A stretch of DNA of 64,000 nucleotides from Microcaldota archaeon (GCA_003660975.1 QMVG01000001.1:1-64000), one strand, 5' to 3'. Positions 24,689 to 45,000 are shown, counted from the first letter of the stretch. Numbers and translations are program-made. Notes: generated by a model from the letters alone, not told the origin.

Positions 24689-27600
24689 GTGGAAAGAGCA
24701 TATGCCTTTTTGATGGCTTTGGTACTGATCTCCTCAGTTTTCACTCCTTATGCATATGCCATTAGGGAGAGAAATAACAACGATTATGTGGTGCATGACA
24801 TAAGCGTTAAAGAAAAAAGCTTAAGCCACTTTATCGGAAGTTCAGATGACAACTGCTGGTTGAAGGTCAGGACATCTGCAATTGACCATGACGAGTTCTC
24901 AAAGCTGATGGAGGCCGTTGATGAGGACATAGACAGCTTCGGAAACATTGTCTTGGGAAGGATACAGAGAGAAAGGGAGAGAGCAGGCATAGCAGACGAC
25001 CCAGAGGTGGAAAAAGCCAGAAACCAGATATTTATGATAAACGGCGTGCCTGTGAGGCTTTACGACATAGCTTCAAGGAGCGCTAAGAATCCAGACGATG
25101 TCTGCCACTTAAGCTCTGTGCTGGTTGACGGTGCCATATCTCTTGGCATGGGAATAAACCAGAACCTGAGGTTTTGCGCTGACAACCCCTCTCCTGCCTG
25201 TGAGGAGGGCTATGCTTCTTCTGTGAGCAGGAAAGACCTGGTCGCAGTTGAGAGAATAATAAGCGAACTGAAAAAAGCAGAGGATGACAAGGAAGTCAAT
25301 TGGGACGCTGTTTCATCTGAATTTGAGAAATTGCACATTGATTTTGAGACAGATGGAAAAAGCGACGGGGAGCTTCTTGATGAAGCTACTGCCAACCTCG
25401 CGAGCATCATAAAAGAAAAAAAGGTAAAGTACAGCCCTGCCAACATAATTGAAAGCAACAGGACCTTCATAACGCTGGCTCCTTCAGACATCATTTACCT
25501 CTTTCCCAAGGAAATAATGAACATGGCCAATGTAATAAGCGGCTTGAGAAAGGACCTCAACAAGTGGAACCTGATGGGCCTCGGGGTTGGGCTGAGCAGC
25601 ATAGGCATTGGTTGGATGAACTCCATAGCAACCAGGTCAGTCACCAGGCTTGGCAGGGGCATAGCAGAGGACAGCGACGAGTTTGCCAGCTTGACCAGGC
25701 AGGGAGGGAGAGTAAGAGGCTTGTTTACCCGAGGAAGCCCGAGTCAAAGGATGATAAGAAGATGGAGCCGCGGTGGAGGCACTATTACAGAAGAGCTAGT
25801 CCCTTCTGCAGGACAGGGAATTAGAGACAGACTTGGAGGCTGGTGGTGGAAAAAGGTTAGAGCGAAAAACCTGAGAAATGTGGGCATAGCTGAGGATGAA
25901 ATTAATGGCATAGCAGATGCGTTGAGAAAGGGAAATATAGATGAGGCTGTGAAAAAGCTGGATGATATTACACGGGATTTGGATAATATTCCCACAAAAG
26001 AAAAAGTAGATGACATTGCAGATGGGCTGAGAAGGATATCAAAGCAAAAGCAAATAACTGGGGAAGCACTCAACGATCAGGTGAGTAAACTGGATGAGCT
26101 TGCTGAAAAGTTTCCTGATGAGGTTCCCGATGAAGCAGAAGTGAAAAAAACTTTAGGAGACGTAAAGAAGATGCTGGAAGGCGGGAGCGTAGATAAAGAA
26201 GTGATAGAAAAGGCTGTGAAAAAGTTGGATGACCTTGCTGAGAATCTTCCCAGCAATACCAAGCTGAAAGCTTTCAAGGAAGAATTAGAAAAGATTAACT
26301 ATTACAGGGACATAAACAGGAGAAGAGCCATAGCTGATGCTCTGGAGAGAAAGCTGACCGAAATCACGCCAAAGGACCCATCCAATACAAAGGAATGGTC
26401 CAAGGCATTTCAGAGCCATTATAAAGACAAAATTTACATAGGGCAGCAAAAGATAGAAGATGTTTTAAATGGATGGAAAAGAGAGGGGAGAATAATGGAC
26501 AGTGACATTAGTGAATTTCTGGAGACCATTGAGAGTGGAAAGTATGACGAGGCCATAAAGGCATTACCGTCTGACATACAAAGTGAGGACATAATAGCAG
26601 ATATAAGAAATGTAGCGGCAAAAGCAAAGAAGACAACTGGAGGGAAGATTGATGATATGGATAAATTTTTAAAGGCGAAGGTCGGCGGTGAATATGTTGG
26701 AGAGCTTGGAGATGTGATGACAGACATCGTGAAGGCAAATGCAGGTGGCTTTGGGGCGCTTATTGACCTGGCCAGGGCTGCAGGCAAATCTAAGGCCCTA
26801 TATTACCTCGCAAGTGCTGCAATCAGAGTAGGGCAGAGGGCGAGATATGTTTTGGACATTGGAAGGACTGCTATGTTTGCTGGCTTTATAGCAAGCACTG
26901 CCTTCAAGGGGGACGTGCAGGGCTTTTTCTCAATGCACACCTTCAATCTTGAGCTGAGCCCGAAGGAAGTGCTCAAGCAAAGCGGAAAGGACGGCTATGT
27001 TGACGTGCTTGCTGTAAGCAGAAAGGCAAGCATTGACATGGTGGAGCCAGACATGGTGACAGCCGTGCTGGCCTACTTTGGCATTGATGTGGGCAAGATG
27101 CTTAACGCTCCGCCGAGCGAGGAGAAAATAATAGCGGAAAAGCTGAAGAGCATAAGCAAGATGCTCTTCTTCATGGACCAGGAGGGAAGCGTGGTTGAGG
27201 GAAGGATCAACAGCATAGGGAGGATTGACGAGCTGGGGTCAAGGAGGTTCATGCTCCTGGCGAGAAACCCGGCGCAAAGCCACTTCCTGCTGGCAGAGCA
27301 CCCTCACTCGTATAAGGTCTCGTCATCTGGAAAGTACAGCTCGCTTCTGCTGAACATAAACAATGTTGACTTAAGCGTCATAGGTCCTGACGTGGTGGAC
27401 TACGCGCAGCCAGACAGGATCACCACCTTCCTCGCAAATTGGATGCCATCTCCTTGGAAGCTGGTGCTGATGGGGGCGGCATGGGGCATCTTTGATGTGG
27501 CAGCAGTTGCCACAAGCAAGTTGGGCATACTCGGCGTTTCAATTCCCGTGATGTACTATGCAACCAGGCTCTTCGGAGAAAGAGGCACCTCACTCGTCTC

Positions 27601-29650
27601 TGACATAACGAAAACAGAGGCATACGTGAAGCTTGTGGATATAGAGGAGGCCATGAAAAGCGAGAACAACTGCGTCAAGGTCAGGAAAAGAGAGGCAGAT
27701 AAATTAGGTAAGATAGTAAAAGGGGCTGAAGCGTTGATAGCCTTAGGGGCGGGTGTTGATGTTGTTGACACTTTTGCTCCTGGACCATGGCAAGCAGCCA
27801 CCTTGCTAGCACAATTAGGAATAGCCTATGCCCAGTACAAACAGGAGAAGAAATTTGCAGAAGCCCAGGTAGATGCGCTGAACGCGATGAAAGGCTGCTA
27901 CGACACTAAATTCCTGGCCTTAGGCATACAGAAGATTCCCACAAAGCAGAAAACTGAAAAGGATGTGATGAGCTCTCTAAAGAGCGGTGAGCTGGAAGGT
28001 GTTGTGTCAGGGCTGGACCAGACGGTAGCCAACCTAATAAAGAGCTTAACGCCATCTGAGAGCGTTTCAGGGCTTGCAAGGGAATTTGCTGATAACTACT
28101 ACTGGAATGTGATGTCCCTGCAGGGAGATTACGACGGACCCAGCATAACAAGGATTACAGGAGATGAGATATACAGGGTTCACTTCAACAGAGATGCTAC
28201 AATGAAGTGGTTCAACACGCCTGACTGTGCCATTGACTACTGCCAGGAATTGGATAACGGCCAGTACTGGTGCATGAGAAGTGAGGGGTACAAATGGCTT
28301 GACAATGATGGAAACACCATGGTAGAAGGGCCTCAAGCAGCCTCTGCCAGGTGGAGAAACAATGACGGCTACATGGAGATTGCTGTAAAATCAATTGACA
28401 TAAATAATAAGGTTGCTAAGGCCATGACAATACATAATGATATTACGCCATACGTGAGCTTTGATGACCCCTGTCTCAAAAAAGAAGTGGCTAAGCTGAT
28501 GGGTCTTTTCAGAGATGGGGATTACAGGGCTTATGCTGACACATTATTAAAGAATAGTTTGGGAGATCTGGAGCTGATAAAAACAGAGGACGCGTATATC
28601 TGGATGGAGGACGGGGATGTTATTGTCAGTTTTAACAAGCAGAAGGTTTGCGGGGACAGGATGGCAGCTTCAAAGTCAATTGCCAGGTTTGAGGGCGCGG
28701 ACATTGAGATATATGGTGATGGAACTGTTAAAATCGTGAAGGACGGTGAAGAGCTGCCTTGCGGAAACTTCAAACTTGGTAAAGGACTGAACGCAGGATA
28801 TGTTAGCTTTGAGAACGGCAAGCTCATGGCAGGAGACGCGTCTGCATACAAGAAACTATTTGGATGGAAGGACCTTGAATCAGTGCTGCACCTGATTATT
28901 TATGATTTGTCTTCAGTAAATGGCGATGTGCTTGATAATATGGGCTGGGAGAGGTGCAGCGTGGAGATTGATGGTAAGACATACTACGGCTTTAGGCTGT
29001 CTTTTGACTTTGATGGCGAGAGCAACAAGGAAGAGCAGTGGAACACCCTGCTTGACGACAGGTGCTTCATAGACTGGACTGCTGTTGATGACTATGGAGG
29101 CATAAGGTTCAACACAGATGAAGATGGAAATGCCTATGCTGAGATAACGCTTCCAAGTGGGGAGCAGGTAAGGGTAGATGACCTAGAGTATAATGAGGAA
29201 AAGAAGAGCTTTGAGGGCAAGGGAGAGGACGGCCATGACTACAGCATAACTGTGAAGGTTGAAAACGGCCAGCCAACTGCATATGTCATGGATGAGGAAG
29301 GAAATGTATACAGGATGCCTCTGTGGATGGCTCGCAGCAATAATGGCGCGTTGGTTTATGACGGGAAGACAGGTGCATTGAGCATAACGAACACGTTCCC
29401 ATTCGCAATAAATCCTGATTTCATAAACTACGGCGCTGACGGAAACGCGATGATGTCTCCTGGGAGGCCTCCATGGATTGTTTCCGAGCAGGACATCAGC
29501 AGGGCAGAGCAAGGCTGGAGGCAGATGGGCCAGCAGAACATATTGGCAGCGCTGCCGTGGACGCCAACAGAAACAACACAGCTGCTGCTCTTCGTAGTGC
29601 TGCTGCTGTCTGGCCTACTGCTAATAAGGAGGAGGAGAAATGAAAATTAA
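24689..29650 (+). CDS. Giant secreted protein (~1653 aa) with helical repeat region and C-terminal TM plus Arg-rich tail
   Basis: Signal peptide-like N-term AYAFLMALVLISSVFTPYAYA; helical KKLDDLAENLP-type repeats; C-term PWTPTETTQLLLFVVLLLSGLLLIRRRRNEN. GTG start at 24689 (TTG at 24686 also possible). Confidence 0.75.
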   Translation: MERAYAFLMALVLISSVFTPYAYAIRERNNNDYVVHDISVKEKSLSHFIGSSDDNCWLKVRTSAIDHDEFSKLMEAVDEDIDSFGNIVLGRIQRERERAGIADDPEVEKARNQIFMINGVPVRLYDIASRSAKNPDDVCHLSSVLVDGAISLGMGINQNLRFCADNPSPACEEGYASSVSRKDLVAVERIISELKKAEDDKEVNWDAVSSEFEKLHIDFETDGKSDGELLDEATANLASIIKEKKVKYSPANIIESNRTFITLAPSDIIYLFPKEIMNMANVISGLRKDLNKWNLMGLGVGLSSIGIGWMNSIATRSVTRLGRGIAEDSDEFASLTRQGGRVRGLFTRGSPSQRMIRRWSRGGGTITEELVPSAGQGIRDRLGGWWWKKVRAKNLRNVGIAEDEINGIADALRKGNIDEAVKKLDDITRDLDNIPTKEKVDDIADGLRRISKQKQITGEALNDQVSKLDELAEKFPDEVPDEAEVKKTLGDVKKMLEGGSVDKEVIEKAVKKLDDLAENLPSNTKLKAFKEELEKINYYRDINRRRAIADALERKLTEITPKDPSNTKEWSKAFQSHYKDKIYIGQQKIEDVLNGWKREGRIMDSDISEFLETIESGKYDEAIKALPSDIQSEDIIADIRNVAAKAKKTTGGKIDDMDKFLKAKVGGEYVGELGDVMTDIVKANAGGFGALIDLARAAGKSKALYYLASAAIRVGQRARYVLDIGRTAMFAGFIASTAFKGDVQGFFSMHTFNLELSPKEVLKQSGKDGYVDVLAVSRKASIDMVEPDMVTAVLAYFGIDVGKMLNAPPSEEKIIAEKLKSISKMLFFMDQEGSVVEGRINSIGRIDELGSRRFMLLARNPAQSHFLLAEHPHSYKVSSSGKYSSLLLNINNVDLSVIGPDVVDYAQPDRITTFLANWMPSPWKLVLMGAAWGIFDVAAVATSKLGILGVSIPVMYYATRLFGERGTSLVSDITKTEAYVKLVDIEEAMKSENNCVKVRKREADKLGKIVKGAEALIALGAGVDVVDTFAPGPWQAATLLAQLGIAYAQYKQEKKFAEAQVDALNAMKGCYDTKFLALGIQKIPTKQKTEKDVMSSLKSGELEGVVSGLDQTVANLIKSLTPSESVSGLAREFADNYYWNVMSLQGDYDGPSITRITGDEIYRVHFNRDATMKWFNTPDCAIDYCQELDNGQYWCMRSEGYKWLDNDGNTMVEGPQAASARWRNNDGYMEIAVKSIDINNKVAKAMTIHNDITPYVSFDDPCLKKEVAKLMGLFRDGDYRAYADTLLKNSLGDLELIKTEDAYIWMEDGDVIVSFNKQKVCGDRMAASKSIARFEGADIEIYGDGTVKIVKDGEELPCGNFKLGKGLNAGYVSFENGKLMAGDASAYKKLFGWKDLESVLHLIIYDLSSVNGDVLDNMGWERCSVEIDGKTYYGFRLSFDFDGESNKEEQWNTLLDDRCFIDWTAVDDYGGIRFNTDEDGNAYAEITLPSGEQVRVDDLEYNEEKKSFEGKGEDGHDYSITVKVENGQPTAYVMDEEGNVYRMPLWMARSNNGALVYDGKTGALSITNTFPFAINPDFINYGADGNAMMSPGRPPWIVSEQDISRAEQGWRQMGQQNILAALPWTPTETTQLLLFVVLLLSGLLLIRRRRNEN

Positions 29651-30239
29651 GGTGCTGGTGCTGGTTATTGCAATGCTGTTTTTGTCTTATGCTGTAAGCG
29701 ATGAAGTGTTAAAGGAGTTGCTGACCGACTACGGCTGCCAAGAGGTAGAAAACGGCGTTATGTGCCCAGAGCTGGGCTATGTGGAGGGCATGGACTTCAA
29801 TATGCTTGAAAACATAAGCTGCATGGTGCTTGATTACGAAAACGCCACTCCTGACTGCGTGAGCAGTATAGAGTTAAGAGGCAATGTCATACAGGAATAT
29901 AAGGTATCCTACGACAACGGCAGCACTGAAAAGCTTTACAAAAGAGTGCCTGGTTACATGCTGAAGAATGTAATTGCAGTCATAAACCCCGAAAACATTG
30001 AGCTAAGCAAGTGCGAAAAGACAGGAGAGGACATATTTTACATTTACTACAGCTGCCCTTATGAGGGAAAGCAGATGTCTGGAGACCTTGCCTTTTTGTT
30101 CAATGAGTTCAACAACGAATCAATAGCAGTTGTGCTGAACATGCGCGAAAGGGGAGTTAGCTTAACTGTGGTGGCTTTCGCCATCGTACTGATAGTTGGC
30201 CTGGGAATCCTGGGTTATGTGCTCAAAAAAAGGCGTTAA
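29640..30239 (+). CDS. Secreted/membrane protein with signal peptide and C-terminal TM
   Basis: MKIKVLVLVIAMLFLSYAVS N-term; LTVVAFAIVLIVGLGILGYVLKKRR C-term; overlaps upstream stop. Confidence 0.6.
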   Translation: MKIKVLVLVIAMLFLSYAVSDEVLKELLTDYGCQEVENGVMCPELGYVEGMDFNMLENISCMVLDYENATPDCVSSIELRGNVIQEYKVSYDNGSTEKLYKRVPGYMLKNVIAVINPENIELSKCEKTGEDIFYIYYSCPYEGKQMSGDLAFLFNEFNNESIAVVLNMRERGVSLTVVAFAIVLIVGLGILGYVLKKRR

Positions 30240-30712
30240 TAGTATATCCTAAGCGAAATCCTCCAATCTCCTATGTGGCTGCTTCCAACATATGTGTTGG
30301 GATAACTCTTGCTTGGATAACCATTACTTACAACACAACCGTTGCTGTCCTTGTACATGCAAAAGATATTGCTGTCTTTCTCAAAGCAAAGGGAAAAATT
30401 GCCTGGGCTGTACTTGGTTAAATTTTTGTAGAGCTCTGGGTAATCTGTGCACAAAAAACTACTTAAGTCACTGATTTGTAATCTTGGGTTAGAAAGTTCT
30501 TTGTAAAGCTCGGGCCAGAAGTAGTCTTCTCCGCCCCCCTCGTAGTGCATTGCAACAAGTGCGCTGTTTATGAACTCGTATGCATATGCTGATGATGCCT
30601 GTCTCAGCGTGGATATGCCATACTGACCAGCACTGAATATTACGAGAATGCTCGCTATGCTGGCAACTATCACAAATAGCATTGCGTCCACTATGGCTGC
30701 CTGTGCCTTCAT
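30236..30712 (-). CDS. Pilin-like protein, system C
   Basis: MKAQAAIVDAMLFVIVASIASILVIFSAGQYG hydrophobic N-term; start refined from 30733. Confidence 0.6.
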   Translation of the reverse strand: MKAQAAIVDAMLFVIVASIASILVIFSAGQYGISTLRQASSAYAYEFINSALVAMHYEGGGEDYFWPELYKELSNPRLQISDLSSFLCTDYPELYKNLTKYSPGNFSLCFEKDSNIFCMYKDSNGCVVSNGYPSKSYPNTYVGSSHIGDWRISLRIYY

Positions 30713-31116
30713 CCTGCACTCCTCCACACGCAAACGACAATGGCATCAAATATATAGCCGGTGTTTGATTGCCTTGCTATGATGTACTTATATCGCAGAG
30801 CGTTGATCTGGCAAACATTTTGGTTTCCGTCTGAATCAAAGTAAATGGCGTATTCAACATTATGGCTTTCAGCTATCATATCTGCCTTCTGCATCAAGGG
30901 ACTGTTAGGATTAAGGTCTTCATCTGAAAGCACGCCTTCAGAGGTAAATACTTTGGCTATCAAAAGAGAGGCCTCGTTCAGCTCCATTGCCTCTCTCTTC
31001 TCCCCAACAAGGCCATAGGCAAAAACTATTCCAGAGAAGAACATAAATAGCGCGAAAAGCACTATTATGAGCGTTGGAAGGTCGTCTCCTATTGGTCCTA
31101 TGAAAGCTTTTCTCAT
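30709..31116 (-). CDS. Pilin-like/minor pilin protein, system C
   Basis: MRKAFIGPIGDDLPTLIIVLFALFMFFSGIVFAY; start refined from 31134; short overlaps. Confidence 0.55.
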   Translation of the reverse strand: MRKAFIGPIGDDLPTLIIVLFALFMFFSGIVFAYGLVGEKREAMELNEASLLIAKVFTSEGVLSDEDLNPNSPLMQKADMIAESHNVEYAIYFDSDGNQNVCQINALRYKYIIARQSNTGYIFDAIVVCVWRSAG

Positions 31117-31646
31117 CCACACACCACCGAGCAAGCTGTCATTTGGCAGCCCTCTATCTCGATTTTTTTATCTGCATTGTCCACCGTTATCTTTATGTAG
31201 CTGTTTTCTGTTGAATTCAGGATAATCTCTTCCCCATAGTTGCAGCTTTCAAGAGAGTAACCTGAAGGTATCAGGGCATAGGCAGAGGAAATGTAGGTCT
31301 CTGGCTTATGCTCTCCTTCTCTCGGATAGGAAAGCATGGCTATTGCTGCGTAGAGTCTTTTATATGTTCCTGCACCTTCAAGACCTATGACAAGCGTATA
31401 TGGCTCTCCTTTCTCAAGGTTCAGGCGGTAGGACTTCTCAGGAATCCTTCTTGGAAGGGGAAAGTTAAGGGTTGCTTCTTCTAGGTTTGACGATAGAGTA
31501 TTGCTTATGGTGTTCACAAGGTCTGATGCTAGGGCTTCAGCTGCCTGGTTCCTGCTCTGCTCTTGGCCTATGCTCATAAAGGAGAAGACAACCCCGAATG
31601 TAACGAAAAGGAATATCAGCATTACCACTTTTGACATTATCCACAT
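31113..31646 (-). CDS. Pilin-like/minor pilin protein, system C
   Basis: MWIMSKVVMLIFLFVTFGVVFSFMS N-term TM; start refined from 31697. Confidence 0.55.
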   Translation of the reverse strand: MWIMSKVVMLIFLFVTFGVVFSFMSIGQEQSRNQAAEALASDLVNTISNTLSSNLEEATLNFPLPRRIPEKSYRLNLEKGEPYTLVIGLEGAGTYKRLYAAIAMLSYPREGEHKPETYISSAYALIPSGYSLESCNYGEEIILNSTENSYIKITVDNADKKIEIEGCQMTACSVVCG

Positions 31647-31662
31647 TCCAAGACCCTTCACG

Positions 31663-32250
31663 CTATCCACCTGCGTAAATTTCCATTTCGTCCCCACTCT
31701 TCTTGCTTATGGTTAAGGTGTACCTAGTTGGCTTGAACCTGCAATTAATGTAAACATTGTTGCTCCATTCTCCTTGGTTTTCGAAATCAAGGTCAGAGAA
31801 TTTACATTCAGCAATATTGCTACTACTAATGCCTGTTGGGAAGAATTCTATGCTTACAGAACTTGGAACGTCAACTGCCTCTATCAATGGGCTTCCTGTC
31901 TCGCCTGCTATGCTGAGCACAAGCAGATAACAGCTCTCCCTGCCAAGTGCGGCCTTACATGTTTCCTCTGAGCCTCCTATCATTCTTATGCCTTCAAAGG
32001 AGGGGTCTGCGCAGCCAACAGGGGAAAAGTCAACGACAACTGTCCTGTTGCTGCCCACAGAGCCGTGGTAAACAGACTCTATTTCCCTTGCCAGGTATGA
32101 CATGGATGCCTGCATCTTCTCGTAGAACTGCGCTGAGCAGGAGTTTTGGTATGTGTAGAAAGCAATTATGAGAACAAAGGAGAGTATGGCCACTCCTATG
32201 AGCAACTCTATCGGGGCCTCTTCTTGCCCTCTTCCTGAAAGCACCGGCAT
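31663..32250 (-). CDS. Pilin-like protein, system C
   Basis: MPVLSGRGQEEAPIELLIGVAILSFVLIIAFYTYQ class III-like leader; start refined from 32361. Confidence 0.6.
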   Translation of the reverse strand: MPVLSGRGQEEAPIELLIGVAILSFVLIIAFYTYQNSCSAQFYEKMQASMSYLAREIESVYHGSVGSNRTVVVDFSPVGCADPSFEGIRMIGGSEETCKAALGRESCYLLVLSIAGETGSPLIEAVDVPSSVSIEFFPTGISSSNIAECKFSDLDFENQGEWSNNVYINCRFKPTRYTLTISKKSGDEMEIYAGG

Positions 32251-32296
32251 AATTAGGTAAAAGCATGGCAGGTATAAAAAACATAAAGAGGAGATT

Positions 32297-32437
32297 TCAG
32301 AAAAGCAGAAAACCAAGCTGCTGGGCGTAAGTGGCAGCGCTCTGGAACATTGGCTTTGCAATCGTGTATATCAATATAGCTGCTATCACCAGCACAATGG
32401 CAAGGTATATTGGAGTCCAGCTAACAGCTCTTTTCAT
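32297..32437 (-). CDS. Tiny (46 aa) single-TM protein, candidate small pilin, absent from the supplied ORF track
   Basis: Manual translation: MKRAVSWTPIYLAIVLVIAAILIYTIAKPMFQSAATYAQQLGFLLF*; fills the gap between two pilin-like genes on the same strand. Confidence 0.6.
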   Translation of the reverse strand: MKRAVSWTPIYLAIVLVIAAILIYTIAKPMFQSAATYAQQLGFLLF

Positions 32438-32449
32438 AGCTATCCCTCA

Positions 32450-32890
32450 CTAGCAACTGTCAAAGTCTGCATCTCCGATGCCTATATAGCAAGTGGTTCC
32501 TGATGTGTCTGTTGTACACTTTGCTTTTACCTTTGCCCTGAAGTCTTTTTCAACTCCTAATTCGTCCTTATCAGTACCAATGGATACTGCTTCATTACTT
32601 GTTAGGGTAGTCTCGGCGCAGAACTTTAAAGTCACTCCGCTGCCTCCAACTGCGTCTGTAAAGGTGTCTGTCGTGTAAACCGTTCCAGCAACGAAGGAGG
32701 CCTCTCCGCTGCTGACAAAGGTGGAGCCCTTGTACTGGTATGCCTTGGAAAGCTGCTGCCTAATTGCAGACGCAGGGTCTGCTCCTGGCGTTGAGATGTT
32801 TCCCAAGATGCCGAGCAGTATGCCAAGAATTGCAACTGCCACCACTGCTGCTATCATCAGCTTGAAGGTGTCAAAGGCCTGTCCTCTCAT
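32450..32890 (-). CDS. Pilin-like protein (QAF-type), system C
   Basis: MRGQAFDTFKLMIAAVVAVAILGILLGILGNI, similar to the N-term of the next gene. Confidence 0.62.
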   Translation of the reverse strand: MRGQAFDTFKLMIAAVVAVAILGILLGILGNISTPGADPASAIRQQLSKAYQYKGSTFVSSGEASFVAGTVYTTDTFTDAVGGSGVTLKFCAETTLTSNEAVSIGTDKDELGVEKDFRAKVKAKCTTDTSGTTCYIGIGDADFDSC

Positions 32891-32937
32891 CAAAACAATC
32901 ACCTCAGGAAGATTAAGTCATCAAAGTATTTAAAAGT

Positions 32938-33321
32938 TTATTGGCAGTTCTTGCTTCCTATGTAAAGCATTGTTTGCCCGCTGCTGGTCTTAGCGCTGAC
33001 CGGCAGCTCTATGTTTTCATCAACCTCGCAAAGACCTGAACTGCAAGAAAAGGCAGATCCGAACTGTTGTCCCACACTGACGCCGTCGACCCCGATGCTT
33101 GAAAATGAAAAGCCCTCTCCCTTAACAAATGAAACCCTGTCCCTGGCAAAGCAGAGGCCAGGCGCCTTTTTTGACTGCTCTGACAGCTCCTTCAGGATTT
33201 GGGCAGAGCTGAGAGGAGATGCAGGTGACTGAGAAGCGAAGTAAACGAGCAAGAGCAGGAAAACCGCAAAGACAGAAGCTATGAGAAGCTTGAAAACCGT
33301 AAAAGCCTGCGCCTTTCTCAT
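32938..33321 (-). CDS. Pilin-like protein (QAF-type), system C
   Basis: MRKAQAFTVFKLLIASVFAVFLLLLVYFAS; start refined from 33360. Confidence 0.62.
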   Translation of the reverse strand: MRKAQAFTVFKLLIASVFAVFLLLLVYFASQSPASPLSSAQILKELSEQSKKAPGLCFARDRVSFVKGEGFSFSSIGVDGVSVGQQFGSAFSCSSGLCEVDENIELPVSAKTSSGQTMLYIGSKNCQ

Positions 33322-33325
33322 AAAA

Positions 33326-35347
33326 TCACGCCGCCATTGTGGATGCAAACCAAGCTGCAAAGAAGAAAAGTGTCATGGCAATCGGGACTGTTTTAGCTAT
33401 GCTCATCTTTAAGGCAAGAGGGTTGTCGCCCTCGTTTATCTTTGTGATGAAGTAGAGCAAGAGGACAGTTATCTCCAGCACGTAAATTGTTATTATTATA
33501 AGAAACGTCATCGCGTCAGGCATTGAGGCCAGCGCTTGTGGGTTTATGAAGCCAACTGGAATGCCTGCGCTTGGCCCTGCTCCTATAAACTCACTGCCTC
33601 CCAGGGAAAGCAAGGCCCCTACAATCACTTTCTGGAGAGCAGAGGTTATTCCCAGCACAAGGGGAGCTATCAAATACGCTATGCTTCTCATCATAGCAGT
33701 TATCTCCTCTAGGACCGCTCTCACCTTCTCCTTGACCTTCTTTGCATCTCTCAGCTGTATTGAGAGTGAAAGCAGAACCCTTGCCCCCTGCTGCACCCCC
33801 AGAGAAAGGGAATCTATCACAACCCTTACTGTGTTCTTTATTATCTTGCTCGGAACATGTCTCAAAGAACCATAGGCAGGGTCAAAGAAGGCTGCCTCTA
33901 TTGTCATGCCTAAATTCTTTATGTTCTCTGCCGTTATCCTGTATGTCCTGGACAGCGGGCTGTCAGTGAGGAAGTTGGCAGTGTACTCAACAGCCTCCTC
34001 TATGGGCCTGTTCTCTCCCAAGCGCGATGCCAAGATGTATATGGAATCCTGAAAGTCAGCCTCCATCCTCATAATCTTGTCTTGCAGTTTCTTCTTAGGA
34101 TAAGTGCTGCCGTATAAGTAAACAGAAACAAAAATCACAGCAGACATCACATAACCTGCCATAGTAAAGAAAGGAATGTAAGAGGCAATAGCTTCCTTGT
34201 CCCAAGGCCTTGTTATTGCTGGGTTCGGATTCAGGAATGGCTCAAACACGTAAATGAAGAGATACGCGGTTGCAAGCATTGCAAAGACTGCAAGCAGAAT
34301 GACAGGGATGTTCGTGTTTCCTATTTTTATGTGCGCCTTCTTTGGCAATTCAGGATGGTCATCTGGAATGTGGGGGGCCTCGTAAACAGGGGGCCTCCTT
34401 GAAAGTATTTGCCTCGCGAAAACAAAAGCCCCAAGAGGCACCAGGATGTTATAGATAAGCACTAGAACCCAGAGCTGCGCAAAAGGCAGATTCGCCATAA
34501 TGCTTCCAATGGGGAGCATGATTATAAGCATAAGGGGAAGCAAAACCCCGACATAATAGAGATATATGCTTGGCTGTCTCATTTTCATAGCATACTTGTC
34601 CATATCGTCCTTTATACCCTCCAAAACATCATATATTGCCTTGTCCAATATCGCGTGCCTCTTGGCCTCATCAACCTCTATGACACTTGACCTTATCAGC
34701 ATGAGAGCATGCTTGAACTCATCAGAGTACTGCCCCCATTTGTATGCCAGCTTGTCCAATGCCTCCTCTGCAGAAGAGTATATGCCCATTTTGAGGTTCC
34801 ATGAAAGCTCCTTCAGCTCGCTTGCTATCTTTCCCCTGCCATGCTCAGAGGCAAAGTCTATTGCCCTTTCCAAGTTTGGAGAAAGCTTCATGCTTATAAC
34901 CATGTAATTTACTATTTCTGGAACCTCCAGAACAGACCTCATCTTGATAGAATCCGCGTGGAAGATTGGATACCTCTGCACGTAATAGGTAAGAGCTATG
35001 GGGCCCAAAAGCAGCATTGGCAGGACATACATCAAGGCATAATAAGGCAGACCTGAAAAGAAGATTAAGAGCAAGGCGATGAATACGCATGGAATGAATG
35101 AAGCTGCAAAGAAAAGGGTTGTTGTATTGCTCACCTGCTCAGCAGATAGGTCCCAGCCAAGAAAATCAATTGCCTGCTTCAGCTTCAAATCCTTGAAAGG
35201 CATAGGGCTTTCTGCTTTTCCCAGCTTACGCGCAATCCTGTAATACCAATTGTCTTCCTCAAAAACAGGCTTCTTTTCCTCTGCTATCAGCGAGCTGTAA
35301 GCTTCTGCATAAGCCTTTGGAACCCTGTCTTCACTTCTTCGCGCCAC
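33326..35347 (-). CDS. Double-T2SF (TadC/FlaJ-like) membrane platform fusion protein, system C
   Basis: 673 aa with two copies of TM-helical cytosolic-TM architecture (EVPEIVNYMVISMKLSPNLERAIDFA... and DSIYILASRLGENRPIEEAVEYTA...). Confidence 0.83.
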   Translation of the reverse strand: MARRSEDRVPKAYAEAYSSLIAEEKKPVFEEDNWYYRIARKLGKAESPMPFKDLKLKQAIDFLGWDLSAEQVSNTTTLFFAASFIPCVFIALLLIFFSGLPYYALMYVLPMLLLGPIALTYYVQRYPIFHADSIKMRSVLEVPEIVNYMVISMKLSPNLERAIDFASEHGRGKIASELKELSWNLKMGIYSSAEEALDKLAYKWGQYSDEFKHALMLIRSSVIEVDEAKRHAILDKAIYDVLEGIKDDMDKYAMKMRQPSIYLYYVGVLLPLMLIIMLPIGSIMANLPFAQLWVLVLIYNILVPLGAFVFARQILSRRPPVYEAPHIPDDHPELPKKAHIKIGNTNIPVILLAVFAMLATAYLFIYVFEPFLNPNPAITRPWDKEAIASYIPFFTMAGYVMSAVIFVSVYLYGSTYPKKKLQDKIMRMEADFQDSIYILASRLGENRPIEEAVEYTANFLTDSPLSRTYRITAENIKNLGMTIEAAFFDPAYGSLRHVPSKIIKNTVRVVIDSLSLGVQQGARVLLSLSIQLRDAKKVKEKVRAVLEEITAMMRSIAYLIAPLVLGITSALQKVIVGALLSLGGSEFIGAGPSAGIPVGFINPQALASMPDAMTFLIIITIYVLEITVLLLYFITKINEGDNPLALKMSIAKTVPIAMTLFFFAAWFASTMAA

Positions 35348-37610
35348 CTTTCCCCCCTCTTGAAATGAGTGGTTTTACGTGTGCTTCAAGGAGCCATTTC
35401 TTCCATTCTGCTTCTGCCTCCTTGTAGTTCACAGAGCCATGCTCTTCCCTCTGCCTCTCCAGAATCAGAAGCCACTTATCATTTGCAGGAACAGTATGAG
35501 AGGCCTCCAAGAGCTCAGGTATCTTGTACTTCCTCTTCATATCTACCATGTACTGCTTAACGCTTGCCCTTGCGTAAATATCATCCCAGAGCTCCTTAAT
35601 TTTCAGACCCCTGCTCTTTGCAATCCTCGGAAACAGCTCAGAGCGCTTTACTTCCTTTTCGTTTACGTACTGGTTGTCCTTTGATGTGTCAAACTCCACA
35701 AGCTTTATCAGGCCACCCTCTTTTTCAGGTTCTTCATACCAATGCTTTCCCACCTCTGTTATCTCTATAAGCCTTCTCTCCCTTCTTATCGAGCCCTTGA
35801 ATCTTATGGGAGCGCAGGTAACTATAACATCAGTGGCCTTAAACGATGTATTAGGAACTTCAAGGTCATTGACAATCCTGTCCCAAACACTGTATGCGTT
35901 TTCTCCGTGTATCGTTCCCATAACGACATTGCCAACAGCCCCTATTCTCATGGCTTCGTAAAGAACTTGTGCTTCTTTGCTCCTAACCTCTCCTATTATC
36001 AGCACAGAATCTCCTAACCTCAGGGCAGTTCTCAATGCCTCCTCTGGTGGCACCTCTGCACTGGTCCTGGAAACAGCAATGGCTGACTGGGTTTTCAGAC
36101 GCTGTATGTTATAACCTATGTTTCTCATAAACTGGACTGGTATCTCCAAGGTGTCCTCTTGAACGATGATCCTTAGGCTTGGAAGAATTTCGAGCATCAG
36201 AGCCATGAGCATGGATGTTTTGCCTGAACCTCTAGCACCGTTGACAAGTGTCGAGGCCTGGGCATCCACGAAAAAGGACAGCATGCCTGCTGTGAGTGAG
36301 TTTAACATCTTGACATCTATGAACTGTGGTAATGTCCATGGTGTTTCCTTATGCAATCTCAAAGCAAACGCAACGCCATCAGGAGACAGAGGAGGACCTA
36401 TCACAGCAACCCTTGTTTTCAAGTCGTGCATGTCCATGTCAAAAACAGGGTGCGCTTCATCAAAAGGTCTTCCTGACTGGGCCCTCAGTCTTGATATAAT
36501 GCCTTTTGCTTCCCTCTCAGTGAAAAGCACATTTGTCTGGCAGCTGCCGTAATCGCTGTGCACCACGTAAACAGGCTTTGAGCCAAGAGGCGCATCCATA
36601 TAAATATCTGTCAGCTTCCTGTCGCTGAGCAGTAATTCCATCATGCCATATCCAACAGTATACCTGGCAACTATGCCTGCTAACCTTCTGACCTGCTCCC
36701 CTGATAAGCTTATGTCGTTCCTCTGGGCAAGGTCTGCAATTGTTGCCTCATAAACCTTTTTGAAGTATTCCCTTATCTCTGATGCTTCCATAAACTGTAT
36801 GCCTTCTGGATGGTAGTTTGAAACAATTTCCCTTGTCCTCGTGAGGAGCATATATTCTTCTGGGCTTAGGTTGTACTCTGGTGGCGAGATATAGTATAGA
36901 TATTGAATCTTCTCAGGGTGCTTATAGATGTTTACGTTTGCGTCAAGCACCTCATATTGGTCCACCAGCTCAACGCCAACAGGCGTCTTGAAAAAAACCC
37001 TTGAAGAAACAAAGGCAGGTTTTATTTCAACCTGAAACAGCGTTCTGTATATTGACCTGTCCTTTGGGATCTGCTTTACTCTGCTTATAATCAGCTTTGC
37101 CTTCTTTATCAGCTCTGTTTTCTCAAAAGCATTGCGCATGAAGTTAAGCACTTTAAGGTAGGGTTCAGCGCATTTTTTGTAGGCCTTTCCCTCTGACGAA
37201 AGCCTTTCCTCTTCCTGTTTTATGGCAGATATTGTTTTCAGGTACGCAGCTATAGGGTCTGAAAAAATTAAGTCAGTAGATATAGACATTATAAGGTTAT
37301 GGCGCGCAGCATAAAGGCCTTCGCACTCTGGATATGGAGCTATCTTCTCGTGCGACCAGACGCTTTCCCTGTGGAAAAGGGAGGCCAAGTCCGCAATCTC
37401 TTTTAGCATCTTGGTTTGCTCTTCGTTGTAAACCCTCTCATATACCTCTGCCAAGACAACGAGGTCTGCGTTTGTCTTTCCCAAAAGCTCTATTACCTCT
37501 CTCATGCACTGCTGGGAATCAGCCACTGATGCTGCAAAGGAAGCGCCCCTATAGTCTATTATTAAATATCTCTTTCCTCCTTCACTTTTAATGATGTATT
37601 TATGGGTCAA
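35331..37610 (-). CDS. Type II/IV secretion system (TadA/FlaI-like) ATPase with long N-terminal extension, system C
   Basis: Walker A NGARGSGKTSMLMAL, QEDTLEIPVQFMRNIGYNIQRLKTQSA, GDSVLIIGEVRSKEAQVLYEAMRIGAVGNVVMGTIHGENAYSV. TTG start with GGTGA upstream. Confidence 0.9.
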   Translation of the reverse strand: MTHKYIIKSEGGKRYLIIDYRGASFAASVADSQQCMREVIELLGKTNADLVVLAEVYERVYNEEQTKMLKEIADLASLFHRESVWSHEKIAPYPECEGLYAARHNLIMSISTDLIFSDPIAAYLKTISAIKQEEERLSSEGKAYKKCAEPYLKVLNFMRNAFEKTELIKKAKLIISRVKQIPKDRSIYRTLFQVEIKPAFVSSRVFFKTPVGVELVDQYEVLDANVNIYKHPEKIQYLYYISPPEYNLSPEEYMLLTRTREIVSNYHPEGIQFMEASEIREYFKKVYEATIADLAQRNDISLSGEQVRRLAGIVARYTVGYGMMELLLSDRKLTDIYMDAPLGSKPVYVVHSDYGSCQTNVLFTEREAKGIISRLRAQSGRPFDEAHPVFDMDMHDLKTRVAVIGPPLSPDGVAFALRLHKETPWTLPQFIDVKMLNSLTAGMLSFFVDAQASTLVNGARGSGKTSMLMALMLEILPSLRIIVQEDTLEIPVQFMRNIGYNIQRLKTQSAIAVSRTSAEVPPEEALRTALRLGDSVLIIGEVRSKEAQVLYEAMRIGAVGNVVMGTIHGENAYSVWDRIVNDLEVPNTSFKATDVIVTCAPIRFKGSIRRERRLIEITEVGKHWYEEPEKEGGLIKLVEFDTSKDNQYVNEKEVKRSELFPRIAKSRGLKIKELWDDIYARASVKQYMVDMKRKYKIPELLEASHTVPANDKWLLILERQREEHGSVNYKEAEAEWKKWLLEAHVKPLISRGGKGGAKK

Positions 37611-38174
37611 ATGAATTCACCTTTGAGAACTCTCCTCTCTAAAAGAGAGTTGTGGAGGGGTTTCACCTTCTTAATAAGTATCGGAGCTTTTTATATCTTT
37701 TTCTACATCTGCCTCCAGCCGCTAATTTATTACATAGAGAGCATAAGTACTGTGCTTACATCTTTTTTTCTCTCTGTCCTGGGGGTTGAGCACTCACTAG
37801 GCTTTGCTGCAGAGCCAGTGATAAGGGTAGGCAGCGTGGATGCGGTTATAGGCAGGTTATGCGCTGGGGACATTGAGATAGCAATGGTGCTGGCGGTAAT
37901 TTTTGCTACATTTGACAGGAAGCTAGGAGATAGGATAAAGGCAGCGCTTGTGGCTCTTCCTTTTATATTAATTGCTAATGCGATAAGGATATCAACGGTG
38001 CTGTGGGTTGGAAGCTCAATGGGCTGGGCAAGTGCTGACTTCGTTCACGACGTGCTTTTCAGGATAACATTGCTTGTGGTTGTTCTGTTATACTATGCTT
38101 TCTGGTATCTTGGATACATGGGCAGGTGCGCGGCTAAAATATTAAATAAAATAAATACCTTAGCAAAGCGATGA
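37602..38174 (+). CDS. Archaeosortase/exosortase-like integral membrane transpeptidase
   Basis: Multi-TM with GRLCAGDIEIAMVLAVIFA (Cys), LPFILIANAIRISTVLWVGS (N-x-x-R), ASADFVHDVLFRITLLVVVLLYYAFW (His): the family triad and spacing. Alternative ATG at 37611. Confidence 0.82.
   Translation: MGQMNSPLRTLLSKRELWRGFTFLISIGAFYIFFYICLQPLIYYIESISTVLTSFFLSVLGVEHSLGFAAEPVIRVGSVDAVIGRLCAGDIEIAMVLAVIFATFDRKLGDRIKAALVALPFILIANAIRISTVLWVGSSMGWASADFVHDVLFRITLLVVVLLYYAFWYLGYMGRCAAKILNKINTLAKR
37628..37651. repeat. Inverted repeat AACTCTC-N10-GAGAGTT
   Basis: 37628-37634 with 37645-37651; nested alternative CTCTCT-AAA-AGAGAG (37635-37649). Confidence 0.6.
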
Positions 38175-38944
38175 AAGGTTTTTCTCTTTTTACTCCACTT
38201 GTTGGAAGTATGATGATGATAACCGCTATAATAATTTCCATGACGATGATACAGAGCGATGCCCACAGCGCCAAGAGCTTTAACAGGGTAATGATAATGG
38301 ACGAGGCCAGAATGCAGGCCAGAATCATCCAGGCAGGCGTTAGCTCTTCGCTCCTGATAAACATTGAGAAAGCGATAAATAAGGTTGTAGAGGACGTTAT
38401 AAATAGAGGGGCTGTTTCGTGCAATAGTAACCGATGTGAGCATGCAATCAAAGGCCTTATTAAAAGCAAATTGGAGGAGAAAGATAAAGAGATTTTCTAC
38501 GCGTCCGCGCATGGTGATTATGAGAATGTTTGGATGGATATAGCAGGTATGATCAGCAACGATTACCTATCTGGTATGGGGTGTAGTGGTCAAGACAGGT
38601 TAGAAAAGTATATGAATTGTCTGTCTAACGCTTTGTCAAACCAACAACAAAGCAGTAGCTTAATAGAAGCTAACTGGAGAGGTGAAACGTTGACAGTAAG
38701 AATAAATCCCCCGCAGCCGGGAACTGAGTTGGCCGAATTGTTTAATATAAAGGCAAATGTTGGGGATTCATCAACTCCCTCAACAATCACCGTAAACGTG
38801 CTGCCAAGAGCCATCTCATATGAAAGAGATATGGAAATAAGTTGTACTCCCTGCGATTCTGGCCAAGCCGCCTGCAGTGTAGATGGTCAGCAGATTACAG
38901 TAAGCTGTGTGTCTTCAACTGGTGGGGGATTCAATAGGATATGA
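38171..38944 (+). CDS. Pilin-like/secreted single-TM protein downstream of archaeosortase
   Basis: MKGFSLFTPLVGSMMMITAIIISMTMIQSDAHS; 4-nt overlap with archaeosortase gene; CTPCDSGQAAC near C-term. Confidence 0.55.
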   Translation: MKGFSLFTPLVGSMMMITAIIISMTMIQSDAHSAKSFNRVMIMDEARMQARIIQAGVSSSLLINIEKAINKVVEDVINRGAVSCNSNRCEHAIKGLIKSKLEEKDKEIFYASAHGDYENVWMDIAGMISNDYLSGMGCSGQDRLEKYMNCLSNALSNQQQSSSLIEANWRGETLTVRINPPQPGTELAELFNIKANVGDSSTPSTITVNVLPRAISYERDMEISCTPCDSGQAACSVDGQQITVSCVSSTGGGFNRI

Positions 38945-39007: not shown

Positions 39008-42000
39008 GTGGGGTTTGGAGATCTTTATTATAAGATTGAGGACAAGTGGTATGACCTTTTGGACTGGATTGAGGCCAAGGGCGTGCCTGTTTACTCTGTG
39101 GTTGACCCAATTGAGGATGCAGGCATTCCATCGCTTCCTGTTTTCGTGGGAATCTTTCTTTTGCTCTGCTACTTTGTCCTGACTGCGTTCGCGCCTGGCT
39201 TGGGAATTGCAGAGGAAGTAAATTTCTCTGTGCAGGTGTCTGACAGCAACGGAAACCTGATTCCAGACGCAGTGGTAAAAATAAGCAAAGGAGGGGAACT
39301 GCTCGTTGAGGGAAAGACATCCATACTTGGAAACTTTGACGCAAGCTTGCCGAAAGGCAGTTATGACATATCTGTCAGCGCTGCGGATTGTGATGGGATA
39401 TCAAAGCCGATTGAGGTTGTTGAAAGCGGTCAGGTAATCAGCATCACGCTGAACTGCGAGATGAGCTTTGCAAAGCAGGTAAGCATCTGCTTTGTCAGCA
39501 ATGACGGGGACACATTGGACACGCCCATAGAGGCAAACGAGGTTGACGAGTACGGCAACTTTATAGACAATGCGGGCAGATGTGATAATGCAGACAGCTG
39601 CAATTTCGAGCTAAAAGACAAATCGCTTTACGTCTTTGAGTCCCTGCATTACAGAAGCGAAATGGTTTACACCAAAAAGGATGTTGAAAGGATTTCTGAA
39701 AGGAAAAACTGCATAACGCTTGAAAGGAAAGAGGAGGAGATAGTTGAAAAAGGTTTGTTCACTGTCGAGCTGCTGCATTCTGACGGAAGCCCTGTTCCAT
39801 GGCAGCTGGTTAATTTAGTTTCTCCAGATAACCACAATTACATCATAGCAAGCCAGCACACGTCCAACGCTGGAAAGGACATAGGTAGCACGACGTTCAA
39901 GCTGAGGGTTGGCACGAAATTCATAATAGTCGTGCCTGGAGGCGAAAACACCACATACTACAAGGGAAACACAACATATGAGATAAGCTCAGAGCCACAG
40001 AGGGTGAGCATAAAATTAGACACGAGCGCAGACACTCTTTTCGCTGTAAGGGAAGAAAAAGCAGGAGTTCCAACACCTGTTCAGGGAGTTAAGATAACTG
40101 TCTTCAAAATAAAAGAGCCAAAGGACGAGATAGTTGCATTTGGCGAGACAGATAGGAATGGGGAGGCACACCTAAGCTTAACTGATGGCGAAAGATATAG
40201 GGTTTCCTTCTTCAAGGCAGGCTACAGGTATGTTGAAACAACAGTTAAGGGAGGAAGCGAGAAGGAGGTCGTCTTGGAGAAAATCTCAAAGGAAGAAGTG
40301 GGAACTGTTGATGTTTACGTGAGCATTGAGGGAAGAGAGCCTGTGAAGGATGCTATTGTCATTATGAAGCATTACGGAAACTCAAGCAAGACAGGATACG
40401 GCATCCTAAAAACAGACGCAAGAGGCCACGTGCATTACGAGTGGGTGCTTCCAGGGGAATACTGCATAATAGTGGCAAGGGCCAAGGACGAAACTAAGTG
40501 TGGGGAGCACAGCTTTACAGTGAAGGCAAATGAGAAGACAAGGGTCAATGTAGAGCTGAAGCCAATAATGTACAGCTTGGATGTCAATGTCCTGCTGAAA
40601 GGAGAGGGCGTGAGAGATGCAAAGGTATCTGTCAAAGACGCGTACTCTGGAGAGGCCATTGCATCTGGAAAAACAGATTACACTGGCTTCGTGAGCTTTC
40701 CGAACATAGCTGAGAGGAGCAAGATAAGGGTTTATGTGGAATACCTGCACAAAGATTTGGAAAGCGGCAGGACAACGCTTTACAGCCAGAGCACTGCCAA
40801 CATAATTGAGATGGATGATGATAAGGAAATCACCTTAAACCTTGTGGAGACAGGCACGAAAATCCAGTTTCTTGGTATAACAAGCAAAAGCGAGAGCTGG
40901 TGGTACGATGGCAGCAAGTGGGTGCAAGGAGCCCCTGAGCTGGTGGCAGGAAATGTGTATTACGCTGTCTTCGCTGTTGGGCTGCCCAAGCTTGAAGGAA
41001 AGAAATGGGATAGTGTTAAATTTTTGATAAGCAATCCTGAAAGCGAGGATTACGTGGCTCTCAGGAAGGCCGGAAACCTGCCCAGTTATATAAGAGACAG
41101 TAAAGCAGTTGAAAGCTCTTCAAGGTTATTCACTGTCTCTGGAAATTACGATGATAGCTCTGATATTATTTCTATATCAATTCCAATCAGGGTCAGACAG
41201 GTATTTGACGGGAGAGTGAAATACTTCCTGAACTTTTACGCTGAGTGGTGGAGAGGTAAAGACATTGTTAGAGACCCTGCAGGAAAGGACTTCAAGAAGA
41301 GCCCTGACTTTTATATTAGGGGCGAGCGCTGTTTCAAAAAAGGCAATTTCGGCATCTGCATAAAGGGAAAGAAAGAAGGCGGAATATTCTATCCTGACGA
41401 CCGATTCCACTTAGAGAAGGGAGAAAGCGCAAACTTTACCATAATAATCAGCAACGAAGGCTCTAATGCATTCGGCGGTAAGATAAAGCTGGAGGACCCA
41501 AAGAGGACAGTTGCTTTTGAAGACATAACTGCTGTCCTTACAACCCCTGAGGAGCAAGTAGGGTTAGAATATGGATTGGACAACGCAGCTGCCAGCATAA
41601 GCATAGACGCATCCCAGTATAAAAAAGAGGACGTGGCAGGGCTGCCTGTTGGCAGCAAAATCACGATAAAGACAAGAATAAAAGCAGTCTTCCCAATACA
41701 GTACACAGACATTGAGCTAAAAGTGGAAGGTAAAGCAGAGCAAGGGCTTGCTTACATATCATTCCCAATATCTGGAGATGCAGACGTACTGCTGAGAAAG
41801 AAGCCAGGGGCGATAACAGAGCTTGCAAGCAGTATCTTGTTCCAGGTAAGGGAAAACAACAGCGGCGCTCCTGGAAGGGCTGTTTACTTTGACCCCAGCA
41901 GTGTAAGTATTTACGGACCTGCATTGAACAAATTTTGTGGAGGAATCCTCTCCACGTCTTCAAGCAATGTGGGCTTCTCTGTTGACAGGCATGGAAACAT

Positions 42001-45000
42001 AACTGTTGACTTCAATGATTACTGCCACCTAAGTGTTGATCCACTCTTTGATGAAAAGCAGCAGATGTTCCTGTATGTAGAAAGCCCCATATTTGAAGGA
42101 AAAACCTTCTCAATACCTGTAAGCCCCTGCGTGCTCGGCGTGTCGCTGGACAAGAAAACAGTGTTCGCAGGAGGAGAATGCAATCTTCAATTAGTCTTTG
42201 ACGATGAGAAAAGCGGCTTGTATAAGGATGAAGAGTTGACTGAAGCTGCGAGCTCCTGCATTGGAGACAGGTGGCTTGTAGTACGTAAAAACGAGAACTG
42301 CAACCCTGTTTTCGGAGAAATAAAAGAAAAGAACGTGAGCATAGAAGCAAAGGAAAGTTGGGTTGCTGGTGAATGGGTCAAGGCAAATATATCAGGCGAA
42401 AAGCTGGAAAAGAACGTTAATAATGAAATTGTAAGCTTCTCGTACGAAGAGATTCCTCCTGACGTGGTGGGAGACAGGGACATAGGAGATCTTGACAAGG
42501 AAGAGGTAAACGGGGCTGCTGTGCTGAAAATCAAGGCAACGGCTAAAAATGAAGTCAATGGCGACGTGTACGTCAGGCAGGACATAGAGATGCCTCTGGT
42601 CATAAGGGATGCAGGCAACTGCCTCACAGTGCCTGAAAGGGAAAGCACTGTGCAGATTCTCCCAAACATAGTGTGCCCGATTAACTTTGAAATAGGCAAC
42701 TTCCCAGGAATTGAAGGCGGAGAGCCCGTGTGCAGCAAGAGCAATTCAATCACATACATATTCGGAAGGAGCGACAAGGACTACTGCAATGACCTTGACC
42801 TTAATAAGATAGAGTCCTTAGAAGTGGAATACAATGAAGAAGAATACAGTGAAAGTAGTTTTGTCCATGTTTCAAGCAAAAGCACTGGGCTGAACGTAAG
42901 TATAACCAAAGGCAGTGGAGAGAACCCACCAAGGACTGTAAAGCTGACAGTTAAACCGAAGATAGAGGGCTTCAAGACAGAAAGGAAAGTCATTGTCAAT
43001 GCTAACCTGGACGGTGGTGGATGCTATGACGCAAATGAGATAGGGAGGGTAAAGCTGCACGGGAACACAGAGTGCAAGATAACGTTCAGCGCAGGTGAAT
43101 CCTCTGGCGGAGAAGGATATATCGAGTGTAAAGACATTGAAGAGGCAGAAGATTACAAAACAGCAACAGTCGAGATAAAAAAGAGGGTGGATGAATGCCC
43201 TGACTTTTTAATCAGCAGCGCGAGTATCGAGGGAGATTCGAATTGGGAGATTACTGAAACTGGCGATAAATATGTAAAAGTGAAGTACGACAAGGGGGAC
43301 TTCAGATACGGGGACACATTTGAGGCAAATCTAAACCTGGAATTAGAGCTCAACTATGAGAACGGGAAAGAGCTTTCAGAAAATATCGTTGTCCCTCTTG
43401 AGACAGGGCTCAACCTGCCTGGCTGGGAAAATGTATATGCAAAAGCAGTGCAGCCTTACCATTTCAATGATGACGGCTCAGTTGACGTTTCGTCGCTTGA
43501 CTGCGAATCAAATGCCTGCAACCTGGAGCAGGCAATGCTATGGCTCAAAGAGCAAAGCAATGACTTCACAAGCAGTCCTGAGGAGGGGATAAGCTTCAAT
43601 CTCGTTCACACGGGCGCCACGGTCCACGACATACAGGCTGCTATGGAAAAAATTGAAAGCGGGAAAAACATTGTGGTGGCAGATAATGTTGATGGCTCAA
43701 GTGGTGATGCGATAGTCATTTCAAGTGACTCTGAACTGGGCTTGGGAGAAAACGCGCTGAGAATAAACAAGGCGAGGAGCGACGGCGAGGAGATAATACC
43801 ATTCCTGCGATTCTCCAACAAGGGAGCAGGTGAAATCAACTCTAGGAAGGCAAGATACTTTAATTACTACTTGCCATTGGTTGCCGATGGGAGCAGTGAA
43901 CTGAATACAATGGTGGATGCTCCAGAGGACTTAAAGGAGAACGTTAAAGAGATGCTGGCAGAGATGTGGGGCTTGCAAGCAGAAGAGCTGAGCTGGCCTT
44001 CTGTGTCCTATTCTGCGAGGATAGTGGTAAAGAGCTGTGGAGTAGATGACAACAGCGAATGCTGCTCTGATTACAATGAGAAGGTCGGCAGCTCGTCCAC
44101 TCCTGCTGTCTTCGTGCTCACCTCTGGCCAAACTGTGCCAGTCACTTGCGTGGTGGCGAGAAACGAGAAGGCCCTCAGCAACTTCATTGAAACCGTAAGC
44201 AGCTTCCTGGAAGGCAGCAAAAGAATGGCCTACAATAAGGACAAGGACTACCTAACTACCCAGAGGAACTTCATAATCCTGAAAGGCGTTGAAGGAAGCA
44301 GCGACTTCTTTGCTGACACTAACAGGTGGCAAAAAGTAAATGATGAACTGAAAGATGAAATAGCTTCTGTGCTGGGCGTTGACAAGAAAAAGGCAATGCT
44401 GGTCCACATGGAACCAGAGGAAAACTGGGAGAACACATATGTGGCTCCTGACATGACCATATTCGTGTGTTCAAAAGGCGAACAGTGCGGCTGGGATTCT
44501 CTTGAAATAAATTCATTACCAGAGTTTGAAGGAGCACACATATGGATTCCAGAAGGAGGCATGTACAAGTACGACAGCAGTATTGGAAGCTTCCTACTTG
44601 TAGATGACAGCGAAAAGGACTCCTGGATAAGCATAGGCAAAAAGCTGCTGCCATACGAAGGAAATACCTACATCCACGCTATTGATGAGAACAACCGCAA
44701 CACGAAACTGTGCCCCAACTCAGAAAGCTGCGTTATCGGAATAAAGAACATCAATGGAATCACGAAAGCAGTGGTGGACGCAAAGGAAATGACTGATGAG
44801 GAGCTGCTTAGCTACGTGAAGAAGGCCGAAGGAAATGAATACTTTGCGCTGCACCTAATCCCAACAGACGAGGAAAAGGATATAGGGAAGCAGTGCAGGG
44901 TGGAAGACGAGGAAGTAAAGATACTTGATGAAAACGGGAATGAAGCGCAACTTGGCTACGGAAACGTTTACCTTGTGGCAGTGGAGAAGGCAGAGACCGG

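Follow-up and report, generated by a model that had tools for sequence, protein, structure and literature searches.

The archaeosortase gene and its surroundings

The subject of this work is a gene on the plus strand of a 64,000-nucleotide stretch of DNA from a Microcaldota archaeon (GCA_003660975.1, QMVG01000001.1:1-64000; "the window" denotes this whole stretch), which encodes an archaeosortase of 190 amino acids (aa; 37602..38174) and lies within a pilus gene cluster. Divergently from it, on the minus strand, runs the gene of a pilus ATPase of the T2SSE family (35331..37610; PF00437, 62.6 bits vs. 24.9), followed by that of a 673-aa TadC/T2SSF-like membrane platform protein (33326..35347), assigned from its synteny with the ATPase and a PF00482 match of 20.9 bits, under the cut-off of 25.2. 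On the plus strand the archaeosortase gene is followed by a gene for a large minor-pilin-like protein (38171..38944), recognized by its conserved N-terminus KGFSLFTPLVG, and by a gene for a giant surface protein of 2402 aa (39008..46216) with one N-terminal transmembrane segment (TM), preceded by GIPSLP, and CarboxypepD_reg-like domains (PF13620, 56.4 bits). A 1654-aa protein encoded at 24686..29650, also on the plus strand, is the candidate client of the enzyme.

The original prediction, made from the sequence of the window, had placed here a divergent archaeosortase-like enzyme with RLCAGDIE, NAIRISTVLW and DFVHDVLF in this order, and the 190-aa open reading frame (ORF) containing all three is present at 37602-38174. 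The predicted overlap with the downstream pilin-like gene amounts to 4 nt (ATGA), and the overlap of the divergent 5' ends was found as well: the first ATG of the archaeosortase gene (37602) sits 9 nt inside the ATPase ORF, which starts with TTG at 37610. With an alternative in-frame ATG at 37611 the two starts would abut and there would be no overlap. Close divergent starts of the two genes recur, with ORF gaps of -9 to -30 nt (G000, G002, G004 and G005) or +33 nt (G003).

In the search with TIGRFAM models that the original prediction had called for, the protein matched TIGR04178 (NCBIfam) at 44 bits with a cut-off of 23 (E = 2.1e-11), and it also exceeded the cut-off of PF09721 (Pfam; 28.4 bits vs. 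25.7). Scores for curated subfamilies were all far under their cut-offs: 29.3 bits vs. 125 for Archaeosortase D (ArtD, TIGR04175), the nearest of them, 26.1 vs. 102.75 for XrtG, 24.1 vs. 95 for ArtE (TIGR04124) and 22 vs. 150 for Archaeosortase B (ArtB, TIGR04144); TIGR04125 (Archaeosortase A) gave no match at E up to 10. The same weak subfamily pattern was seen across a 14-member alignment of the enzyme, all 14 members weakly matching TIGR04175. Judged by these profiles, the protein is a genuine member of the exosortase/archaeosortase superfamily, divergent as predicted in that no subfamily cut-off is reached, and chance resemblance is ruled out.

Four residues, Cys87, Asn126, Arg129 and His149, do not vary among the 31 pilus-linked homologs, which are otherwise very divergent, and the same Cys, Asn, Arg and His are also kept in five members of a second archaeosortase paralog group. 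Cys87, Arg129 (within NxxR) and His149 are the putative active-site residues. In an AlphaFold 2 (AF2) model of the enzyme, with a mean predicted local distance difference test (pLDDT) score of 92.5, helices span residues 14-59, 90-101, 108-140 and 142-169; C87 is placed before the second helix, R129 within the third and H149 where the fourth begins or close to it, and an active site close to one face of the membrane would fit these modelled positions. No credible match came from a sequence search of the PDB, and Foldseek with the model returned no solved structure at E < 0.001.

A conserved pilus module

The predicted siting of the enzyme beside a pilus operon was borne out well beyond the source genome, the same block recurring in relatives. 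A contig scan with a five-member alignment of the enzyme gave four loci. By profile search, 15 of 19 genomes from the phylum have the enzyme at >160 bits, and it was detected in other archaeal lineages at 85-190 bits. The recurrent block consists of the giant gene, a pilin-like gene with GF(S/A)xFTPxVG and the archaeosortase gene, and then, divergently, the genes for the ATPase, the TadC-like protein and the pilins. The enzyme and ATPase genes are divergent in 25 of 26 loci from the own phylum and other small-genome archaea; in the lone exception (G205) they are on one strand, 5.8 kb apart. Genes found between the two in some relatives (L043 8109-9596, L114 10323-12569) are not conserved and were set aside.

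Pairwise distances of enzyme and ATPase are correlated (Mantel r 0.68, none of 2000 permutations as high). A maximum-likelihood tree placed the pilus-linked enzymes together across one branch (UFBoot 98, SH-aLRT 86), apart from 16 other archaeosortases, and G222, labelled as 'other' within the pilus-linked side, is likewise part of a pilus locus. In G030, G052 and G072 archaeosortases were found at 85-97 bits that fall outside this clade, and these genomes contain no client, so the bit score by itself does not define the clade. On the evidence of synteny and phylogeny, the archaeosortase belongs to the core of a conserved pilus module and forms a clade of its own.

The candidate client and its C-terminal tail

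A screen of the proteins encoded in the loci sought C-terminal TMs with a basic end. The 1654-aa protein, whose family was singled out by this screen, is encoded at the distal end of the pilin operon, 8 kb from the archaeosortase gene, and has a signal-peptide-like N-terminus and a tripartite C-terminal tail. The tail comprises the putative sorting motif LPWTPTE (residues 1623-1629; 29552..29572), which follows the family consensus [LIV]PxxP(E), a hydrophobic segment LLLFVVLLLSGLLLI (29582..29626), recognized by hydropathy and forming a C-terminal helix in the AF2 model, and the basic end RRRRNEN (29627..29647). Members of the family are of about 1350-1730 aa, with a signal peptide and a C-terminal TM; their tails consist of [LIV]PxxP(E), the TM and a short, mostly basic end, and in other lineages the motif is usually LPSLPE. 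A Pfam and NCBIfam search with the client gave no family, and a tail signal of roughly LPxxPE + TM is not contained in either collection.

Pro-x-x-Pro before the C-terminal TM was present in 20/20 clients that defined the motif, in comparison to 4 of 134 controls, i.e. other proteins with C-terminal hydrophobic segments from which two client copies had been removed (Fisher 1.7e-21). It was also present in 14 of 16 further client C-termini outside the defining set. Overall, the first proline (P1624 here) is kept in 36/36 clients, the second (P1627) in 34/36 and the next Glu in 21/36; both exceptions, G339 (LPSLGE) and G154 (LPLLEP), come from genomes whose archaeosortases are very divergent. 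Both prolines are among the ~25 highly conserved of 1070 well-filled columns in an 18-sequence alignment of this fast-evolving protein. The AF2 model of the last 915 residues of the client (mean pLDDT 47.8) is confident only at ~670-825 of the fragment and in the C-terminal helix, and in it a beta-rich domain is joined to this helix by ~55 linker residues of low confidence.

The suggestion that the enzyme is dedicated to local clients held with a single amendment: the best candidate is neither the adjacent pilin-like protein nor the neighbouring giant. Two other genes were considered and rejected. No PxxP is present in the 199-aa product of the gene adjacent to the client gene (29640-30239), which does have a C-terminal TM and KKRR, and the motif is also missing from its neighbours in relatives. 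The minor-pilin-like neighbour of the enzyme (38171-38944) has no C-terminal TM.

Co-occurrence of enzyme and client

A profile of the client body was searched in 388 archaeal genomes and a 40-column profile of the tail in 297 genomes. The client family was found in 36 of the 388 genomes, 35 of which have the pilus archaeosortase, counts that do not represent independent events since the genomes are related. The enzyme was detected at E < 1e-15 in 33 of the 36; G154 has a divergent copy beside the ATPase gene and G339 a fragment at a contig edge. In G015, a genome 87% complete with a broken contig, the client is present and no archaeosortase was found.

The tail profile re-found its training members and, in addition, seven clients that had not been used (G008, G010, G016, G118, G188, G239 and G290). 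These are encoded apart from the enzyme, on other contigs or at other positions, one per genome, and all seven genomes are enzyme-positive. Weaker matches were without the motif columns, except for one in G084 (17.5 bits, 775-aa ORF). A genome-wide search for a shared tail had been named beforehand in the original prediction as one of the tests on which the idea might fail; it found LPWTPTE-TM-RRRRNEN, with conservation throughout the family. The sole motif-bearing match in the source genome is at 29537-29647 (51.7 bits), the next one reaching 13.1 bits without the motif columns.

Proposed mechanism and alternative explanations

Family membership, conserved active-site residues, linkage to the pilus genes and one-to-one pairing with a protein whose tripartite tail has the layout usual for archaeosortase substrates are all computed results. 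Together they point to a polytopic archaeosortase working within a single type IV/Tad-like pilus system. Its substrate would be essentially the 1654-aa protein alone, which it would cleave and attach; we give this reading a probability of roughly 0.68.

Export, cleavage, the position of the cut and attachment are proposed by analogy with known archaeosortases. The 1654-aa protein would be exported by its N-terminal signal peptide and held in the membrane by the C-terminal TM, with the Arg-rich end inside the cell. Near the outer membrane face, Arg129 and His149 would activate Cys87, which may attack the client chain at or just after LPxxP(E). The TM and the basic tail would be removed and the new C-terminus of the client joined to an acceptor. 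The PssD family (PF02666), the phosphatidylserine-decarboxylase homolog on which maturation of ArtA substrates depends in Haloferax, had no match in any of the 19 class genomes, with a positive control in Haloferax volcanii, so the acceptor or its supply may differ from that of ArtA. A further version, quite unlikely in our estimate, is that the enzyme is an archaeal counterpart of pilus sortases and joins the LPxxPE end to a pilus subunit or the giant fibre protein and not to lipid. If so, many small-genome archaea would carry a single large surface protein bound covalently to their pilus machine.

Several observations weigh against the reading with a single dedicated client. The enzyme, ATPase and client are co-inherited, and co-occurrence therefore cannot separate action of the enzyme on the tail from mere membership of a shared module. 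Portability of the signal is not demonstrable, since no unrelated protein was found to carry the client tail. A few client tails are weakly basic or even acidic (SRYFSKEEEE in G017). Finally, the N-terminal segment of the giant is conserved in 24 homologous genes, about 22 of which (counted by eye) have a GIPSLP stretch before the N-terminal TM, and this stretch does not co-vary with the client motif; part of the conservation of the motif may thus reflect a role at the membrane interface. The GIPSLP of the giant leaves room for a second client or for such a membrane-interface role.

As to the giant itself, its GIPSLP resembles the LPSLPE of the clients. In the giants it ends an acidic N-terminal segment, YxxxEDKWYxxLDxLxxKGIPVYxxxDPLExxGIPSLP, standing right before the single N-terminal TM.

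The alternative that survives best, in our view still unlikely, accepts a real archaeosortase dedicated to the module and assigns it another substrate, the giant with its GIPSLP-TM or the minor pilin, the client tail being nothing but a conserved anchor. The recurrence of GIPSLP among the giants speaks for it, as does the fact that the giant and minor-pilin-like genes often directly adjoin the enzyme gene, and ArtA can process a tripartite signal located away from the C-terminus (PMC9263693). However, the motif of the giant precedes a signal-anchor-like TM and hence is probably on the cytoplasmic side, remote from the active site, and no basic third part follows this TM. The lack of a C-terminal TM counts against the minor pilin, and the canonical layout of signal peptide and motif-TM-basic tail is that of the 1654-aa family.

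It is improbable that PxxP beside a TM is a structural membrane-interface element of the module and that the enzyme has many diffuse clients elsewhere in the genome. PxxP-TM does occur in two unrelated proteins of the module, and the second archaeosortase of the genome implies that more than one type of tail may exist. Against this, PxxP at that place is rare among the control proteins, the tail profile finds one protein in the source genome, and the distributions of the enzyme clade and the client match. Loss of catalysis, with the protein helping to assemble or scaffold the pilus machine in the membrane, would suit the strict tie of the enzyme to the ATPase and platform genes and is very improbable given the invariance of Cys, Asn, Arg and His in such divergent homologs.

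Comparison with known systems

In H. volcanii, ArtA processes PGF-TM-basic tails with attachment of lipid, PssA and PssD being involved, and its critical residues are Cys173, Arg214 and Arg253 (PMC9263693). The proposed pair resembles ArtA and its PGF-CTERM substrates in having a polytopic membrane enzyme with conserved Cys and Arg and a client with a motif-TM-basic C-terminal signal. It differs in the third conserved residue (His149 vs. Arg253), in the motif, which is LPxxP(E) and not PGF, in the apparent number of clients, one vs. several, and in the lack of a PssD homolog in the 19 genomes of the class.

ArtE is likewise a small archaeosortase, and in Methanococcus maripaludis an in-frame deletion of artE abolished transformation, a type IV-like pilus process (PMC10133366), so that participation of an archaeosortase in such a process is not without precedent; the window protein is, however, far under the ArtE cut-off. 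Archaeosortase B, associated with VPXXXP-CTERM, shares a proline-rich recognition motif, judged by the family name, but its score here is also far below cut-off and the prolines are spaced by four, in comparison to three in PxxP. The pilus islands with FliI/TadC of DPANN archaea (Makarova et al. 2019, PMC6393860) are similar in their ATPase, TadC, diverse pilins and surface proteins, a likeness drawn from their description; the part of that account used here names no sortase or sorted client. The word 'sortase' does not occur in a review on type IV pili of archaea (PMC4858521), and the open-access literature yielded no account of archaeosortases in DPANN pilus loci (subscription papers and preprints lay outside the search).

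Other features of the region

Six pilin-like genes, all on the minus strand, complete the operon of the ATPase and platform protein. They are located at 32938..33360 (assigned from its hydrophobic N-terminus and synteny), 32450..32902 (N-terminus GQAF...; synteny and BLAST matches in relatives, including other phyla), 31663..32361 (GQEEAPIELLIG..., with the true start probably internal), 31113..31697, 30709..31134 (IGPIGDDLP..., synteny including other phyla) and 30236..30733, the third, fourth and last being assigned by synteny. As to class III (prepilin) signal peptides in the module, a basic-Gly with a hydrophobic stretch after it was seen by eye and by pattern. The N-terminus [KR]GF(S/A/N)xF(T/S/A)(P/A)x(V/I) is conserved mostly in the gene adjacent to the archaeosortase gene. 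Members of this minor-pilin-like family have 257 aa in the window and up to ~740 aa in relatives; KGF(S/A)xFTPxVG is nearly fixed in them and has a Pro close to where Glu5 usually stands.

A span of 28 kb contains three different pilus-type ATPase genes (9730-11667, 17800-19422 and 35331-37610), each with its own TadC-like and pilin-like neighbours. In the product of the second one (17800-19422) an N-terminal 4Fe-4S ferredoxin-like domain (PF00037, PF13237) is fused to T2SSE; its relatives likewise have Cys-rich N-termini (e.g. L126, L142), and PAC2 and flavin-reductase-like genes are found nearby. Downstream of the giant, 46198-49038 encodes six to seven small membrane proteins (78-152 aa) that are partly conserved (L034, L038); the one searched gave no known family. 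At 2-6922 there is a 2306-residue surface ORF with CARDB domains, the end of which (SSHAQQRGRSKR...) is unlike the rest, and a 3' frameshift is possible.

The minus strand of G000 contig C4 (L048) encodes, at 6149-6709, a second archaeosortase that belongs to another clade (TIGR04178, 51.5 bits). It is followed by a gene for a long coiled-coil protein that recurs beside homologs in G002, G003, G006 and G007.

Significance

Archaeosortases are mostly regarded as cell-wall sorting enzymes with many clients. One archaeosortase clade, by contrast, seems to have a permanent place in a pilus system, with only one client as its partner and a tail signal of its own (LPxxPE + TM). The pairing provides a testable enzyme-substrate pair for archaea that are mostly not culturable, and a pilus archaeosortase of this kind may help to explain why an archaeosortase is needed in the pilus-dependent DNA uptake of Methanococcus. 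It also gives a handle on the surface machinery by which DPANN archaea may contact their hosts.
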